12,446 bases of DNA from Clostridia bacterium (GTDB taxonomy: Bacteria > Bacillota > Clostridia > RGIG8785), in the NCBI GenBank assembly GCA_017620795.1, contig JAGAUM010000203.1, positions 1 to 12,446 on the forward strand. Direction: 5' to 3'. The notes below the pieces were generated by a model. The model ran no database searches, was not told where the DNA came from, and worked only from the letters and a program-made list of their open reading frames with translations. Both the position numbers and the translations under genes were made by a program. Positions 940-12,446 of this stretch are shown here, in pieces; position 1 is the first letter of the stretch, and every line of letters starts with the position of its first letter.

Positions 940-3612
940 TTACAGACCCAGGTTCTCGTAAGCATCTTTAACAGGCTCAACGATGATCAAGGAAACGATG
1001 TTTTCATCTTCGTCCAGAACGAACAGAGCGTAGTGTGCTACGTCTGCGTTTTCGCCGCCGATGTCAGCTTCGTTCTCGCCCAGGTCAAATGCATCAGCAA
1101 CAGCGAAGTTGGTCTTCTTGTTGTAGTTAACAACATAGGTGTCAACTTCTGCCAACTTGATGTTGGTTACGGACTGGTTACCAGAAGCGTAGTTCAGGGT
1201 AACGATACCGTTGTTGTTGATGTCAGCGATGGTACCATAAGCGAAGATGCGGTTGGTGGTAGCAACTACAGCAGAGGTAGCATCAGAGGTCAGGGTGATT
1301 ACGTTGTTGCTGTTAGCAACAGGAGCGATAGCAGCGATCTTCTTGTAAGCATCGATCTTGCCTTCGCCGTCAACAACGTAGGTGATAACGTCGCCGATTG
1401 CGAAAGTAGCGTCGGTGGTAACCTTAGCTTCTGCGCCTTCAACCAGAACGGTCAGCTCGGTAACTTCGTTCTCATCAGCATCCAGAATGGTGTCCTTAGC
1501 AGTAACGATAGCGATGGGAGCTTCGAAGGTAGCGGAAGAAGCACCGCCGAAGATTGCGATAGCGGTAACCTCACCGTCATCATTGGTAGCACCAGTGATC
1601 GGGTAGAAGGTGTATTCCTTATCGTCAACCAAGGAATCTAAACCAGCAACAGAGATGTCAGCCAGTTCGCCATCCTCAGGCAGGTTGAAGACCAGAACGT
1701 CCTCAGCCAGGAATGCGCTCATCTTGGTCAGAGCTTCGCTGTACTTAGCGGTAATAACAGAATCAACGGAAGCAGCCTTCAAAGTGGTAACAACGCCGTT
1801 AGCGTTGGTCTCGATTTCGAAGAAGTTGCCTTCAACGTCGGTGTCTTCGATTACGCCAGCGGAACCGAATACATGGATACCGGTAACCAGAGCGTAAGCA
1901 ACATCAGCGTAAACCTTATCGGTAGCGCCGGTGTCAATCTTGGTGTCATAAGCCAAGGTGTAGGTGTTCAGACCGTCTTTGTCCAGAACCTTGATGGTGT
2001 AATCGTCGGTACCAGCAACAGCCTGTGCACGGTATACCCATGCGTAGTTAGCAGTGGATTCAGCAGCTTCGAAGTTAACGATCTTGCCAGCAGCATCCAG
2101 GTAGAAGGTACCTTCATCCTTGATAGCGAAGTTGTTGAACAGAGCGATAGCAGCGGACTTGTAGTACTTGGTGTCACCGATGGTGTACATGGTTACGTTG
2201 TCTTCGTCCTTAGAAGTAGCAGTAACCTTACCCTCAACGGTAGCGGTGGAAACAACCATGTCGATAGAAGTGGTGTTCTTCTTGATGGTCAGAACTGCAT
2301 CCTCGGTCAGGTCAGCGGGCTCAACAGCAGCGCCGTTAACGTCAACTAAGGTGTAGGTCATGTCTTCCAGAGTATCTTCGTCCAGCTTGATGTACTTGGA
2401 ACCGTCAACGGTGTTCTTCAGAACGATTCTCTCACGAGCTGCATCGTACTTGCTAACCATAGCGGTCTTGTACTGGGTAGCGAAGATGGTCAGGATAGCG
2501 TCTTCGTCTTCGTTCAGAACGAATTCGTAAGCCATGTCAGCGCCGTTGGTCAAACCGGTCAGGTTTGCAACCCACTCGCCGTTGATGTACATACCGGTAG
2601 CAGAAACGTCCAGAACAACGTCTTCGTCGTCAGCGTCGGTATAGGTAACGGTGGACTTGTCACCAGCGACGGTGCAATCTTCACCAGCCAGATCCAGAAC
2701 AACGTTGTCGGAATCCTTAGCAACAGCTACCAATTCGAACTTGGGAGCCTTCTTACCGGACTCAGCCAGGTAAGCTTCTACAGGATAGCCAACTAAAGAA
2801 GCATCGATGTCAGCAGCCAGAACGGTCAAACCGTCGGTGCCATCGATAACCAGGTCAGAGTTGGTGGGGCAAACGTAATCGTCGCCATCCTCAACGGTCA
2901 ACTTAACCTTTTCTACGTCAACGATGGAATTCAAGGTAGCTTCTACCTTGTAGATTTCCAGCTTCTCAGACAGTAAGGTCTTGCCAGCTACTACATCGTA
3001 GGAGATGTCAGAACCCCAACCAGACTGTTCCATCAGGTTGATGTCCAGAGCGTTGTAAGCCAGTTCAGCTACGATAGCACGAGCTGCTTCCTGACCAGCG
3101 GAACCGGAAACACCCTTGGTCAGCTTCATTTCCTTAGCGGCAATGAGGTAACCGGTGGGATAGGTACCCTTGGTCAGAGCCTTGGGCTCATAACCCAGAG
3201 CGCAAACTAACATCTTAACGAACTGCTCGTAGGTAACTGCATCTTCGGGACCGAAGTTGCCATCGCCGTAACCAGCAATGATGCCGGACTGAGCAGCCAT
3301 GTTGATGTAGCCGCTGCCCCAGTGGTCAGCTGCAACGTCAACGAACTGAGTTGCACCAGCAGCGCCAGCTGCTGCTTCTTCAAGACCCAGCAGACGAACG
3401 ATTACAGCGGCAGATTCTGCACGAGTAATGGTGTTGTCGGGGTTGAAGTTGCCCTTGTCGTCACCCTTTAAGATATCAAGAGCGGACAGGACTTCGACTG
3501 CGGTTGCATAATCAGCGTCTGCAGCAACATCGCCGTAAGCAAAGGAAGTAACCGATGCGAACAACATTGCAGCAACTACTAAAAATGCTACCATGCTTTT
3601 GAGATTTCTCAT
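940..3612 (-). CDS. S-layer-type protein with N-terminal SLH repeats
   Basis: Secreted cell-surface protein of 890 aa, likely the main or an abundant S-layer component, attached non-covalently to secondary cell-wall polymer through SLH repeats. A signal peptide covers about residues 1-25 (positive MRNLK, hydrophobic core, cleavage after SFA). SLH repeats follow at roughly 33-78 (with the ligand-binding TRAE motif), 88-140 and 150-190, the last degenerate. The remaining ~700 residues are acidic, rich in Ala, Val, Asp and Thr, poor in Cys, and show no enzyme motif; repeated beta-rich strands suggest Ig-like or S-layer assembly domains. The ATG at 3612 is chosen because AGGAGG lies 8 nt upstream; an in-frame TTG at 3618 is only 2 nt from it. 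The gene has its own promoter, a structured leader and a strong terminator, all consistent with high expression. Not recognised beyond the SLH part. Confidence 0.88.
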   Translation of the reverse strand: MRNLKSMVAFLVVAAMLFASVTSFAYGDVAADADYATAVEVLSALDILKGDDKGNFNPDNTITRAESAAVIVRLLGLEEAAAGAAGATQFVDVAADHWGSGYINMAAQSGIIAGYGDGNFGPEDAVTYEQFVKMLVCALGYEPKALTKGTYPTGYLIAAKEMKLTKGVSGSAGQEAARAIVAELAYNALDINLMEQSGWGSDISYDVVAGKTLLSEKLEIYKVEATLNSIVDVEKVKLTVEDGDDYVCPTNSDLVIDGTDGLTVLAADIDASLVGYPVEAYLAESGKKAPKFELVAVAKDSDNVVLDLAGEDCTVAGDKSTVTYTDADDEDVVLDVSATGMYINGEWVANLTGLTNGADMAYEFVLNEDEDAILTIFATQYKTAMVSKYDAARERIVLKNTVDGSKYIKLDEDTLEDMTYTLVDVNGAAVEPADLTEDAVLTIKKNTTSIDMVVSTATVEGKVTATSKDEDNVTMYTIGDTKYYKSAAIALFNNFAIKDEGTFYLDAAGKIVNFEAAESTANYAWVYRAQAVAGTDDYTIKVLDKDGLNTYTLAYDTKIDTGATDKVYADVAYALVTGIHVFGSAGVIEDTDVEGNFFEIETNANGVVTTLKAASVDSVITAKYSEALTKMSAFLAEDVLVFNLPEDGELADISVAGLDSLVDDKEYTFYPITGATNDDGEVTAIAIFGGASSATFEAPIAIVTAKDTILDADENEVTELTVLVEGAEAKVTTDATFAIGDVITYVVDGEGKIDAYKKIAAIAPVANSNNVITLTSDATSAVVATTNRIFAYGTIADINNNGIVTLNYASGNQSVTNIKLAEVDTYVVNYNKKTNFAVADAFDLGENEADIGGENADVAHYALFVLDEDENIVSLIIVEPVKDAYENLGL

Positions 3613-3728
3613 TCTCAATTCCTCCTAAAAAAGTTTTTTGAAAGAGCGAGTGGTTATCAGGTAACCTACGTGCTCTTTCTGGTCCATAAAGTTACCTGTC
3701 AGAGCAGAGTATCCTCTACTCTGACTCT
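3613..3728 (-). promoter_or_regulatory. Structured 5' leader of the S-layer mRNA
   Basis: The predicted 116-nt leader starts near 3728 and ends at the AGGAGG (3626-3621). Its first bases form a hairpin: AGAG plus CAGAGTA pair with TACTCTG plus CTCT (3728-3701, 5-nt loop), leaving almost no single-stranded 5' end. Such 5' stems are known to stabilise long-lived bacterial mRNAs. Further on are two interleaved complementary pairs: CAGGTAAC (3698-3691) with GTTACCTG (3665-3658), and GAAAGAGC (3679-3672) with GCTCTTTC (3647-3640). The second helix can also enclose a small GGTTA/TAACC hairpin (3666-3652). The pairs are either mutually exclusive or form a pseudoknot. It does not match a riboswitch class that I recognise. 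Confidence 0.6.
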
Positions 3729-7781: not shown

Positions 7782-10460
7782 ATGAAAAAAGTACTTTGTT
7801 TGTGTCTGGTATTGGCAATGGTTCTTTCTTGTCTGTCCTTTTCGGGCGGCGCAGGGGCGATTTGCTATTCTATTGAAGAAGCCTCCGCTGAGTGGACCTT
7901 TTCTTCCGTAGAGGGGACAACCTTTGTTCCGACGGTGGAAAAGACGGCAACAGCAGTCTTTACTGCGCCCGGCAACGGCACGGTGACCATTCCCGAAACG
8001 GCCGTTTCGGCAGTGGGGAATGACGGTGCGCGGGTACGTATCTTAAAAGGAAGTAACGAAGTCCTTTCTTATCTGGATGTTCAAGGCAAAACATCGGTTC
8101 CTGCCCTTACGTTGCATGTGACCGCAGGGGAGACGGTCACCTTTGAAGCAGACGCCCGCGCCATGGACGAAGATCGGGGTTCTTGGGCAGTATCCCTTTC
8201 TTATGTAGGTGGTATTGCCGAAGCGGAAGCCTTGGTCAATTTCATCGACTTAAACAATCACTGGGCGAAGTCCTATGTGGTTCCGTTGGCGGAAGAAGGC
8301 ATTATTAAGGGAAAGACCGCCAACCGTTTTGACCCCGACGGACAGATTACAAGAGCTGAGTTTTTGACCCTGGCTTTGAAGGTTGCCAACCTACCTACTG
8401 AGATTTATCTTCCTTCTTATGCAGACGTCACCGAAACCCAGTGGTTTGCCAAAGTGGCACACACGGCGCAAAAAGCTGACATTTTGGCTCCCGAAATGGT
8501 GGTTAACAACCAATTACTTCCTGACGCACCCATCCTGCGCGAAGAGATGACTGCAGTCATCATGCGCCTGATTGCCGTGATGCGTGGCACCACCGTGGAC
8601 CCTGCCCACTCTTTCACCGATGGCGCAACCTTTGCACCTTGGGCAAATGATTATATTGGTAAAGCCGCTAAACTGGGCATCGTTACGGGCAATCCCGACG
8701 GAAGCTTTAATGCAAAAGGCTCTGCCACCCGTGGGGAAGCGGCGGTCATGTTCTCTCGTTTGAAGAAATTTTTAGCAGATACCCCCATCTATACTCCTGC
8801 AGGGGAATATTCCCCCGTCTATGACGCTATCGTTTACGAAAATATTGACTTGCACAAGATGATTAACGATGCCTATGCCGCAGGGCAGAAGGAAATTACC
8901 ATTGCCCCCGGTGCGTATCGCATCAAGTCCTCTCCCAAAGGCGGACATATCCGTTTGGAAGGCGCCAAAGACTTTACCATCAACGGCGAAGGGGTCACCC
9001 TGCTCCTGCAAACAGGTTCCACTTCCGCATTCAACCTAGTTAATTGCGAAAACGTCCGCATCAACGGCTTTAATGTGGATTGGGAAAAGGGGATGCTCTT
9101 CCAGGGTCAGATTTACAATTTCGACCCCGACGGCTATTACTTCGACTTTACCATCGAACCGGGCTATCCCAGCGACTTGAAGAAGTTAAGCGCGTCCATG
9201 ATGGGCTCTTTCTATGACCGTGACACCCACGAACTGGTCATCGGCACCGAAACTTTTAACTTAAGACCGACCCAGATAGACCAGCTGGGCCCCAACACCT
9301 ATCGTTTGAATGCAAAATCCATTGCAGGTCAAAAAGAACTGAAGGTTGGCGACTACCTCTGCGCCCGTGCCTATGCCAACGCGTCAACCGTACACCTGTA
9401 TCGTAGTAAAAACTGTGCTGTTGTAGGCATGAACATCTGGGGCGGTCTCTGTTCCTTGACCGACACCTTTGGTGAGGGAGGAACCTTATACCAAGACATT
9501 AAAAACGTCTGCGGCCCTACGCCTTTGGGCGCCATCTCCCCCAGAATGGTTTCCACCCAGGGCGACGGCGTACACTGCACCGCGCTCCGCAAGGGTCCGA
9601 AAATCATCAACTGTGTCTTTGAAAATCAGTTGGACGACGGCACCAACATCCATGGTTCTTTTGGCAAGGTCTATGAAGTCAAAGGTGACACGATAGTTGT
9701 CGGCCTGCATAGCAAACATACCCTCTATTGGCAAGGCGACGATATCCGCTTCTATAACCCCACCACCGAAGAAAATACCCAAGCTTTTGTCAAAGAGGCC
9801 AAGGCTTTGGAGGGCTATACTCCTTCCGTCAACTTAAACGAAGACGTGGGCTCGGTCAGCTTCGTTGCTGAAAAGTACTTTGAAGTCACCTTGGAAAAGG
9901 GCGAAAAGAACTACAAGGTAGGCGACTGGGTCATCAACCGTGACTGGACCTCCAGCGACTTTGAGATTCGGGACTGTGTTTTCAGAAACTCCCGTTCCCG
10001 TTCACTTTTGGTGAAATCCAGCAATGGCGTAATTGAAAACTGCGACATCTCTTTAGGCGCCATGTACGGACTCTGGATTGCGCCGGAGTTTGACTGGACC
10101 GAATCGGGCTACTCCGAGAATGTAGTTGTCCGCAACTGTACTTTCTACAAAAACGGTTGGGTACAGGTGGGACACTCAGGCGGTCTTACCGTCAGCGGTG
10201 GCGAGGGTATCGGTCAGGATCACCATAACGTCACCATTGAAAACTGCACCTTCTATGACAACTACAATTTAGACCTGCATATGAGTGAGGGTACCGATTT
10301 TGTCATCCGCAACAACACCTTTAAAAACAGTACCCAAAACGCGTCGGTCTGCATCAGCCTGGACAACGCCACCAACGTCACTCTTTCGGGCAACACCTTT
10401 GGCGAAGGTCGCACCAACGTCAAAGCGTCCGACAGTGTTTCCAATTTAAAAGAACTCTAA
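7782..10460 (+). CDS. SLH-anchored right-handed beta-helix protein, GH110-like (alpha-1,3-galactosidase type)
   Basis: Predicted cell-surface glycan-active enzyme of 892 aa. A signal peptide (1-26, cleavage after GAGA) is followed by a beta-rich domain at about 30-150 (TAVFTAPGNGTVTIPE through SWAVSLSYVGG) resembling small carbohydrate-binding sandwiches. Three SLH repeats come next, at about 155-200 (IDLNNHW, TRAE), 215-270 (REE) and 277-333 (TRGE). From about 345 a parallel beta-helix begins, with many N-G/N-C turns such as FTINGEGVTLL, VRINGFNV, IENCDIS and VRNCTF. QGDGVHC (D595) and QLDDGTNIHG (D618, D619) reproduce the 23-residue spacing that I recall for the catalytic aspartates of GH110 enzymes. 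GH110 removes terminal alpha-1,3-galactose, as in blood-group B glycans. The class is likely; the substrate is not proven. It has its own terminator and is followed by a paralogue. Start: ATG with GAGGTGG 4 nt upstream. Confidence 0.82.
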   Translation: MKKVLCLCLVLAMVLSCLSFSGGAGAICYSIEEASAEWTFSSVEGTTFVPTVEKTATAVFTAPGNGTVTIPETAVSAVGNDGARVRILKGSNEVLSYLDVQGKTSVPALTLHVTAGETVTFEADARAMDEDRGSWAVSLSYVGGIAEAEALVNFIDLNNHWAKSYVVPLAEEGIIKGKTANRFDPDGQITRAEFLTLALKVANLPTEIYLPSYADVTETQWFAKVAHTAQKADILAPEMVVNNQLLPDAPILREEMTAVIMRLIAVMRGTTVDPAHSFTDGATFAPWANDYIGKAAKLGIVTGNPDGSFNAKGSATRGEAAVMFSRLKKFLADTPIYTPAGEYSPVYDAIVYENIDLHKMINDAYAAGQKEITIAPGAYRIKSSPKGGHIRLEGAKDFTINGEGVTLLLQTGSTSAFNLVNCENVRINGFNVDWEKGMLFQGQIYNFDPDGYYFDFTIEPGYPSDLKKLSASMMGSFYDRDTHELVIGTETFNLRPTQIDQLGPNTYRLNAKSIAGQKELKVGDYLCARAYANASTVHLYRSKNCAVVGMNIWGGLCSLTDTFGEGGTLYQDIKNVCGPTPLGAISPRMVSTQGDGVHCTALRKGPKIINCVFENQLDDGTNIHGSFGKVYEVKGDTIVVGLHSKHTLYWQGDDIRFYNPTTEENTQAFVKEAKALEGYTPSVNLNEDVGSVSFVAEKYFEVTLEKGEKNYKVGDWVINRDWTSSDFEIRDCVFRNSRSRSLLVKSSNGVIENCDISLGAMYGLWIAPEFDWTESGYSENVVVRNCTFYKNGWVQVGHSGGLTVSGGEGIGQDHHNVTIENCTFYDNYNLDLHMSEGTDFVIRNNTFKNSTQNASVCISLDNATNVTLSGNTFGEGRTNVKASDSVSNLKEL

Positions 10461-10483
10461 AAAAAGCCCTTCGGGGCTTTTTT
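10460..10483 (+). terminator. Rho-independent terminator of the first SLH beta-helix gene
   Basis: AAAAAAGCCC, a TTCG tetraloop and GGGCTTTTTT form a 10-bp hairpin ending in a T-run directly after the TAA stop. C(UUCG)G is an exceptionally stable loop. It separates the two tandem paralogues into distinct transcripts. Confidence 0.92.
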
Positions 10484-10489
10484 AGTCAA

Positions 10490-10522
10490 GATTGTGTAAA
10501 TTTTATCCATGATTGTGTAAAT
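10490..10522 (+). promoter_or_regulatory. Direct repeat operator upstream of the second SLH beta-helix gene
   Basis: GATTGTGTAAAT occurs twice (10490-10501 and 10511-10522), exactly 21 bp apart, or two helical turns. Each copy contains TGTAAA, a valid WalR half-site. The second copy overlaps the place of the -35 box, which is otherwise not recognisable. This arrangement suggests an activator-dependent promoter. Confidence 0.5.
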
Positions 10523-10542
10523 CCTTTAAGCATTTTCCTTGT

Positions 10543-10548
10543 TATAAT
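10543..10548 (+). promoter_or_regulatory. -10 element of the second SLH beta-helix gene
   Basis: A perfect TATAAT lies 27 bp before the ATG at 10576. No TTGACA-like box is found 16-18 bp upstream; the repeat GATTGTGTAAAT ends there instead. The GGAGGTG at 10564-10570 is the ribosome binding site. Confidence 0.6.
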
Positions 10549-10575
10549 AAAAGTAATAAAGACGGAGGTGCAAAA

Positions 10576-12446
10576 ATGAAAAAAGTTTTATGTGTGTGTT
10601 TAACAATGATGTTACTCCTCTCCTGCCTGCCCATGACCGGTGGCGCAGGGGCAATTCTCTACACCCCCGAGGACGGCGCTTGCTGGACTTTAAACGGGGT
10701 TGACGGCAACCTGTTTGCAGGCGATGCCACGGCAGTCTTTACCGCCCCTGGTAACGGAAGCGTGCAAATCCCCGAAACGGTTGTTTCCGCTTTGGGCGGA
10801 GATGGTGTTCGCGTCCGCATCTTAAAGGAAAAGGCGGAAGTGGTTTCTTACATCGATATTGCCGACGGTGAAAGCATCACCATCCCTGCTTTATCTTTGA
10901 CGGTTGCCGAAGGCGACACCATCACCTTTGAAACCGATGACCGTGCTATCGCCGGGGACAAGGCAGAGTGGGATATTGCCCTTGCTTATACAGGCGGCAT
11001 TGCCGATGCAGAAGCGTTGGTCAACTTCATCGACTTAAATAACCACTGGGCGAAATCCTATGTACTTCCCTTGGCAGAAGAAGGCATCATCAAAGGTAAA
11101 ACCGCCAACACCTTCGACCCCGACGGGCAGATTACCCGTGCAGAGTTCTTGACCTTGGCATTAAAGGTTGCCAACCTGCCCACCGAAATCTATAAAGCAT
11201 CCTATGCGGATGTCACCGAGAGCCAGTGGTTTGCTAAAGTAGCGCACACGGCGCATAAAGCAGACATCTTAGACCCCAACATGGTGGTCAATAACCAATT
11301 ACTGCCCGACGCGCCCATCCTGCGCGAAGAAATGACCGCAGTCATCATGCGCTTGGTTGCTGTAATGCGTGGTACCGCTGTGGACCCTGCCCATTCCTTT
11401 ACCGATGCTGCAACCTTTGCGCCTTGGGCAAACGATTACATCGGCAAAGCCGCTAAACTGGGCATCGTCACAGGCAATCCCGACGGAAGCTTTAATGCTA
11501 AAGGCTCTGCCACCCGTGGGGAAGCGGCGGTCATGTTCTCTCGGTTAAAGAAGTTCTTGGCAGACACCCCGTTGTTTACCCCTGCGGGCGAGTACTCACC
11601 CGTTTATGACGCCATCGTTTACGAGGGTGTTGACCTGCATAAAATGATTAACGATGCCTATGCCGCAGGCCAGAAAGAAATTACCATTGCTCCCGGCGCG
11701 TACCGCATCAAGACCCAGCCGAAAAACGGACACATCCGTCTTTTGAACATGAAAGACTTTACCATTAACGGTGAGGGCGTTACCTTGCTGCTGCAGACCT
11801 ATACTGCCGTTGGCATCGTGATGCAGAACTGTGAAAATGTAACCATCAACGGCTTTAACATTGACTGGGAAAAGGGCACCATCGCCCAAGGTCAGGTCTA
11901 TAATATCGACCCTGACGGCTACTACCTGGACATTGCCGTTGAACCGGGCTATCCCAATGATTTCCACGGCGGTAAGATGTACGCAGACGGCATGTCCTAC
12001 ACCTATTATGACGGAGACACCTTCAACCAACTGCCTGTAAACGGCGGACTGATCCGACCCTTGGCACAGATGGAACAGTTAGGCCCCAACACCTATCGTA
12101 TCAACGGCAAGCGTCTTGCAGGTGAAGCAGGCATCAAGGTAGGCGACTGGTTCGCCGCCCGTGCCTATAAGACCACTGCCGCAACGTCCTTGTTCAACTG
12201 CAAAAACTGCCACTTCAACGGACTTCGGGTCTGGAGTGCACTGTCCACCTTGAACGATTCTTACGGCGAGGGCGGTTCTTCCTACCACGATGTTCACTTA
12301 GAGCGCGGTCCCATGCCTTTGGGCGCCATCTCCCCCCGAATGGTCTCCACCCAAGGGGACGGCATTCACTGCACCGCCTTGCGTAAGGGGCCGCAGGTTA
12401 CCAACTCCTCCTTCTCTCATCAGTTGGATGACGGTACCAACATCCA
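10576..12446 (+). CDS. Second SLH-anchored GH110-like beta-helix protein (3' end outside the window)
   Basis: Tandem paralogue of the gene at 7782, open to the window edge (623 codons seen). It begins MKKVLCVCLTMMLLLSCLPM with cleavage expected after GAGA. The same beta-rich domain (TAVFTAPGNGSVQIPE) is followed by three SLH repeats from IDLNNHWAKSY to about residue 330 and the beta-helix start at SPVYDAIVYE. QGDGIHC (D595) and QLDDGTNIH (D618, D619) keep the candidate catalytic aspartates at the same residue numbers as in the first copy. The SLH block is nearly identical even at DNA level, whereas the segment at about 461-500 is quite different from the copy and three residues longer. This points to a conserved anchor with a changed binding cleft. 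ATG with GGAGG 7 nt upstream. GH110-like function is inferred from the motif, not proven. Confidence 0.85.
   Translation, partial: MKKVLCVCLTMMLLLSCLPMTGGAGAILYTPEDGACWTLNGVDGNLFAGDATAVFTAPGNGSVQIPETVVSALGGDGVRVRILKEKAEVVSYIDIADGESITIPALSLTVAEGDTITFETDDRAIAGDKAEWDIALAYTGGIADAEALVNFIDLNNHWAKSYVLPLAEEGIIKGKTANTFDPDGQITRAEFLTLALKVANLPTEIYKASYADVTESQWFAKVAHTAHKADILDPNMVVNNQLLPDAPILREEMTAVIMRLVAVMRGTAVDPAHSFTDAATFAPWANDYIGKAAKLGIVTGNPDGSFNAKGSATRGEAAVMFSRLKKFLADTPLFTPAGEYSPVYDAIVYEGVDLHKMINDAYAAGQKEITIAPGAYRIKTQPKNGHIRLLNMKDFTINGEGVTLLLQTYTAVGIVMQNCENVTINGFNIDWEKGTIAQGQVYNIDPDGYYLDIAVEPGYPNDFHGGKMYADGMSYTYYDGDTFNQLPVNGGLIRPLAQMEQLGPNTYRINGKRLAGEAGIKVGDWFAARAYKTTAATSLFNCKNCHFNGLRVWSALSTLNDSYGEGGSSYHDVHLERGPMPLGAISPRMVSTQGDGIHCTALRKGPQVTNSSFSHQLDDGTNI

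Follow-up and report, generated by a model that had tools for sequence, protein, structure and literature searches.

All enzymes of glycoside hydrolase (GH) family GH110 that had been characterised by the time of one study showed alpha-1,3-galactosidase activity (PMC7939477). In the enzyme PdGH110B, D344 is the likely acid and D321 and D345 are candidate bases, the -1 subsite comprises N85, R265, N348, R453, E480, W486 and E488, and R451 belongs to +1; R265 coordinates both O2 and O3 of galactose, and N85 is among four residues that touch the O3, O4 and O6 hydroxyls (PMC7939477). GH28 and GH49 form clan GH-N, for which GH87 and GH110 have been proposed (PMC7939477). Specificity varies within GH110 too, GH110A accepting galactose-6-sulfate and being inactive on p-nitrophenyl alpha-galactoside (PMC12549532), and a Bacteroides fragilis alpha-galactosidase, in a paper that names GH110, stripped blood group B antigen from human kidneys (PMC10364487). 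Here we describe two adjacent genes, A and B, on the 12,446-nucleotide contig JAGAUM010000203.1 of a Clostridia bacterium (GCA_017620795.1; contig C38 of genome G000 below), the whole of which is the window analysed. At a probability of roughly two in three, we regard them as members of a large, lineage-specific family of GH110-related glycoside hydrolases that are wall-anchored and have diverged in specificity. The bacterium is probably uncultured, and its assembly amounts to 1.20 Mb and is 62.8% complete. Near-identical database proteins (P0003) bear the name of a Clostridia bacterium metagenome-assembled genome, and the class given here follows those names.

Relationship to GH110 and the putative active site

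The beta-helix of genes A and B is homologous to GH110: members of that family with solved structures are matched significantly, at 3.8e-14 with a single sequence and at 2.5e-43 with a profile, which bears out the relationship proposed in an earlier, sequence-only reading of this DNA. The structure model of gene A (mean predicted local distance difference test score, pLDDT, 91.4) has the right-handed parallel beta-helix fold of GH110, and the likeness extends over about 500 residues in comparison with PdGH110B (7jw4/7jwf/9beu), GH110A (9beh/9bev), AgaBb (8yk1-3), PpaGal (9i4f) and an Akkermansia enzyme (8pvs). An alignment of that length suggests the presence, in whole or in part, of barrel domains I and II; in the Pfam scan PF23763 was partial and below its cut-off, and PF23764 was not reported. 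The fold and the layout of the acid/base pair are also those stated for GH28, GH49 and GH87 (PMC7939477), although the sequence match of the family to GH87 reaches merely 0.0036.

The sequence-only reading had pointed to two shared motifs and three aspartates, and nearly all of this holds. DGVHC or DGIHC and QLDDGTNI occur in both genes, with aspartates at residues 595, 618 and 619 of each that fall at the GH110 catalytic positions; the final H of its longer QLDDGTNIH lies, for gene B, past the end of the contig. The 23-residue spacing that it gave for GH110 is that of D321, D344 and D345 in PdGH110B (PMC7939477), so that the trio is spaced 23/24 in both cases. When positions are mapped through alignments to 9beh and 7jw4 and the published residue numbering, D344, D321 and D345 correspond to D618, D595 and D619 of gene A, and N348, R453, W486, E488 and R451 to N622, R740, W772, E774 and R738, whereas N85 falls in a gap, R265 becomes A532 and E480 becomes A767.

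The same division is seen in an alignment of 132 rows, in which groups were read off the corresponding tree and from which five of the 20 loci of this genome are missing as too short. Rows of the GH110 clade carry N85 in 24/26 cases, R265 in 25/26 and both jointly in 24/26; among the 106 rows outside that clade N85 occurs in none and Arg at the R265 column in 11. The 15 rows from this genome lack the N85 loop throughout (0/15) and have Arg at the R265 column in two, but keep the Trp of the W-x-E motif in 15/15 and its Glu in 14/15. The His of the FHG motif is found in 0/15 of them, against 21/26 rows of the GH110 clade. The E480 column is variable even inside that clade (5/26) and is unusable as a criterion. 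These counts imply that the N85/R265 part has not been kept, unlike the catalytic machinery, the stacking Trp and the Arg located at O6 and the ring oxygen. To judge from the alignment, the conserved galactose -1 subsite of GH110 would be only partly present, with equivalents of N348, R453, W486 and E488 retained and those of N85 and R265 mostly absent.

Phylogeny likewise places the family, at about 20% identity, beside the GH110 clade rather than within it. The profile matched 145 sequences, of which 12 were dropped and 133 covered over 380 of its positions; a quick tree was built from 132 of them and a mixture-model tree from 71 hand-picked rows. In the latter, 23 GH110-clade rows split from the 48 others with support of 100/99.9. 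The 23 include all four of the GH110 structures in that tree, and the family proteins fall outside their clade (9beh, 9i4f, 8pvs and 8yk3; PdGH110B and the Bacteroides and Streptomyces enzymes were left out). Set against GH110 rows alone, the 15 rows of this genome cluster together in that tree; in the 132-row tree they form, with SLH-bearing homologs, one 49-row group (Shimodaira-Hasegawa-like approximate likelihood-ratio test, SH-aLRT, 95). The earlier label of GH110 alpha-1,3-galactosidase is thus not upheld, given both this position and the N85 and R265 equivalents that are mostly missing.

An expanded family within one genome

The proposed tandem pair of SLH and beta-helix genes is real, gene A being complete and gene B running off the contig end, and it is one small part of a much larger set. 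A whole-genome search gave 20 beta-helix matches, and 21 open frames on 18 contigs match the beta-helix, two of them being halves of one gene split by TGA; together the 21 frames total 44.5 kb, or 3.7% of the assembly. Nineteen copies span the catalytic region and differ from one another in sequence, so this number is not swollen by pieces of genes broken at contig ends, and at least 19 copies in one genome, most of them SLH-anchored, set the family apart from GH110. Tandem copies recur on contigs C216, C102, C212 and C246. The D618/D619 equivalents are present in all 19 readable copies and the full Asp-Asp-Asp trio in 14, the first position being Thr or Gly in the other five. SLH repeats occur in 14/19 copies (in one, on C49, upstream of a stop); three copies with an intact start (C246 copy 2, C72 and C66) have neither SLH repeats nor, by eye, a signal peptide, and the other two are truncated at the N-terminal end.

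Genes A and B share 70% identity (438/630 aligned columns). Comparison of A, B and the C216 copies with one another gives identities of 84-95% for the SLH part and 56-68% for the first half of the helix, a mosaic pattern in which the anchor appears to be held uniform as the enzymatic part diverges. The N-terminal domain is 93% identical between B and C216 copy 1 and 54% identical between A and B. Genes A and B have database counterparts at 88% (P0004) and 83% (P0009), and 6/15 copies of this genome pair in the 132-row tree with a near-identical protein on another database contig; from these counterparts and paired proteins, at least part of the expansion probably predates this strain.

Within the class, 33 of 391 genomes sampled, this one included, match at 1e-10 in a survey that scored at most three candidates per genome. 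A rescoring of copies, which covered those 33 genomes and in which one gene can yield more than one match, gave 20 matches here and 8, 7 and 6 in the next genomes. The 59 other genomes drawn as relatives were all merely of the same class. The pairing of SLH with the beta-helix is not unique to this genome, since it is also found in one protein of G051 (one of eight long proteins scanned from other genomes). The best match in the class sample outside this genome (L078:138-3575 of G128; 3.4e-91) is a 1146-aa protein in which a Big_2 domain, but no SLH repeat, was matched.

Several members depart from the common plan. L041:33-2552 and L042:984-3659 each contain a single in-frame stop (TAG and TGA, respectively) within a long match and are either decayed genes or assembly errors. 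The tandem copies at L046:5211-12674 (1135 and 1329 aa) have a long additional N-terminal region; residues 1-330 of the 1135-aa copy gave nine protein matches, all nine annotated with SLH and eight also with beta-helix. L047 and L048, members without SLH and, by eye, without a signal peptide, are probably cytoplasmic. A jelly-roll domain is N-terminal in C72, and a similar stretch is apparently C-terminal in relatives, e.g., P0027 and P0028 (by eye).

Predicted surface anchoring, possible regulation and the surrounding contig

Each protein begins with what looks by eye like a signal-type stretch and also has a beta domain and SLH repeats, the last with Pfam E-values of 3.1e-26 and 8.2e-30 for genes A and B and three TRAE-like motifs in each. 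In gene A two stretches pass Pfam alone and the third repeat comes from motif and structural match, solved SLH domains also being matched. CsaB, which produces the cell-wall ligand to which SLH domains bind, scores above its cut-off in the same genome, as it does in 4/14 control genomes. With SLH repeats, a signal peptide and CsaB, the features of an SLH-anchored surface protein are predicted to be complete, and the wall display suggested in the sequence-only reading is credible. ChiW, a Paenibacillus chitinase, is likewise a glycoside hydrolase on a Gram-positive cell surface, in a paper that carries the S-layer homology term (PMC5132251). Its catalytic family differs from the one described here. 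To our knowledge, no comparable number of paralogs has been described for ChiW.

The features of the two genes are collected in Table 1. The terminator directly 3' of gene A and the TATAAT and GGAGGT elements 5' of gene B indicate that the two genes would be transcribed separately. Paired direct repeats about 21 bp apart were also seen by eye upstream of C216:2688, C216:5093, C72:5249 and C212:12674, their sequences differing from one family gene to another; as a guess, such pairs could be operators of AraC-like regulators.

Table 1. Coordinates of genes A and B and of associated features in the window
Feature	Position	Strand	Basis or remark
Gene A, SLH-anchored (predicted) GH110-like protein, 892 aa, complete	7782..10460	+	ATG 7782; sequence, Pfam, structure model
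Gene A signal peptide, residues 1-26	7782..7859	+	Judged by eye from a basic start, a hydrophobic run and GAGA
Gene A N-terminal jelly-roll domain, residues 27-145	7860..8216	+	Resembles carbohydrate-binding modules, also TNF/C1q folds
Gene A three SLH repeats, about residues 150-335	8229..8786	+	Pfam, motif, structural match
Gene A GH110-like right-handed beta-helix, residues 345-892	8814..10457	+	Sequence and structure comparison
Gene A D595 codon	9564..9566	+	Counterpart of PdGH110B D321, a candidate base, in the alignment
Gene A D618 and D619 codons	9633..9638	+	Counterparts of PdGH110B D344, the likely acid, and D345, a candidate base, in the alignment
Putative intrinsic terminator after gene A, GCCC-TTCG-GGGC with A5/T5 flanks	10461..10483	+	By eye; automatic scan did not list a terminator
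Pair of GATTGTGTAAAT direct repeats ahead of gene B, 21 bp apart	10490..10522	+	Possible operator
Gene B TATAAT and ribosome-binding site GGAGGT	10543..10569	+	By eye; promoter scan listed no site here
Gene B, second copy, legible to residue 623, 3' end beyond contig	10576..12446	+	ATG 10576 behind GGAGGT
Gene B D595 codon	12358..12360	+	Sequence, alignment to gene A
Gene B D618 and D619 codons	12427..12432	+	Sequence, alignment to gene A

The minus strand of the contig encodes an SLH protein, a regulator that we take, from its domain pair, to be Rex-like, a dehydrogenase of the isocitrate/isopropylmalate type and an aconitase-type protein. The SLH protein (940-3618; 892 aa, no further Pfam match at 1e-5) is a candidate S-layer protein. 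Another minus-strand frame, of 247 aa at 62-805, matched nothing in Pfam at 1e-5; the HLHT at its start presumably resembles that of PHP-type phosphoesterases.

Probable function and significance

Each protein would be secreted and then held on a wall polymer through its three SLH repeats, with the jelly-roll domain ahead of the beta-helix perhaps binding sugar. Catalysis would most likely be a single displacement of the GH110 type, with inversion, in which D618 would protonate the glycosidic oxygen while a water below C1 would be activated by D595, D619 or both, and W772, E774, N622 and R740 may retain their GH110 places around the -1 sugar. Because the N85/R265 part of the pocket is changed, the paralogs may act on sugars other than, or besides, alpha-1,3-galactose; they would probably work in exo mode, removing terminal alpha-linked sugars, with different copies for different glycans.

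It is unlikely that the genes encode ordinary GH110 alpha-1,3-galactosidases that act on host or plant alpha-galactosyl glycans and have replaced the missing pocket residues from other positions. The close match in fold and catalytic residues would suit such enzymes, and R451, a +1 galactose contact, is Arg in 11/15 rows of this genome and 17/26 of the GH110 clade. Contigs bearing the family also encode a GH35 beta-galactosidase (C49), a BNR-repeat sialidase-like protein (C130), and a KDPG-type aldolase with a DGOK-type kinase (C60), and C137 carries a galactonate dehydratase above cut-off together with the end of an SLH gene; the GH35, DGOK and galactonate dehydratase genes point to use of galactose or galactonate by the organism and keep a galactosidase role alive. 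Against it stand the absence of the N85 loop from all 15 rows, the rarity of Arg at the R265 column and the well-supported branch that separates these proteins from the clade of the four GH110 structures in the tree.

Somewhat less probable again is that many copies are non-enzymatic binding proteins or antigens at the surface, their expansion providing variable adhesion, since pure binding would not need the D618/D619 pair and the W-x-E motif that the copies retain, and SLH is absent altogether from three copies whose start is intact. Other catalysis on the same fold, by an epimerase, a lyase or an endo-hydrolase like GH28 or GH87, is most improbable: such matches span about 310 rather than 500 residues with a weak or absent sequence match, and most copies retain the GH110 Asp trio and W-x-E motif.

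More tentatively than for the family of GH110-related hydrolases that we favour, these proteins may be founding members of a GH family apart from GH110 (of the clan GH-N type), in which case one lineage would hold a repertoire of at least 19 enzymes, both wall-anchored and cytoplasmic, each regulated on its own and with sugar pockets rebuilt in different ways, a Gram-positive counterpart, made from one enzyme fold, to the polysaccharide loci of Bacteroidota. The genes are of greater interest as an expanded and mostly wall-anchored family at the edge of GH110 than for their tandem arrangement. A neighbouring clade in which the cutting residues are the same and the pocket has changed could yield new exo-glycosidase specificities, and the commitment of about 3.7% of the assembled bases to this family points to a central place for one kind of glycan in the life of the organism, whose diet would be testable from a single fold.
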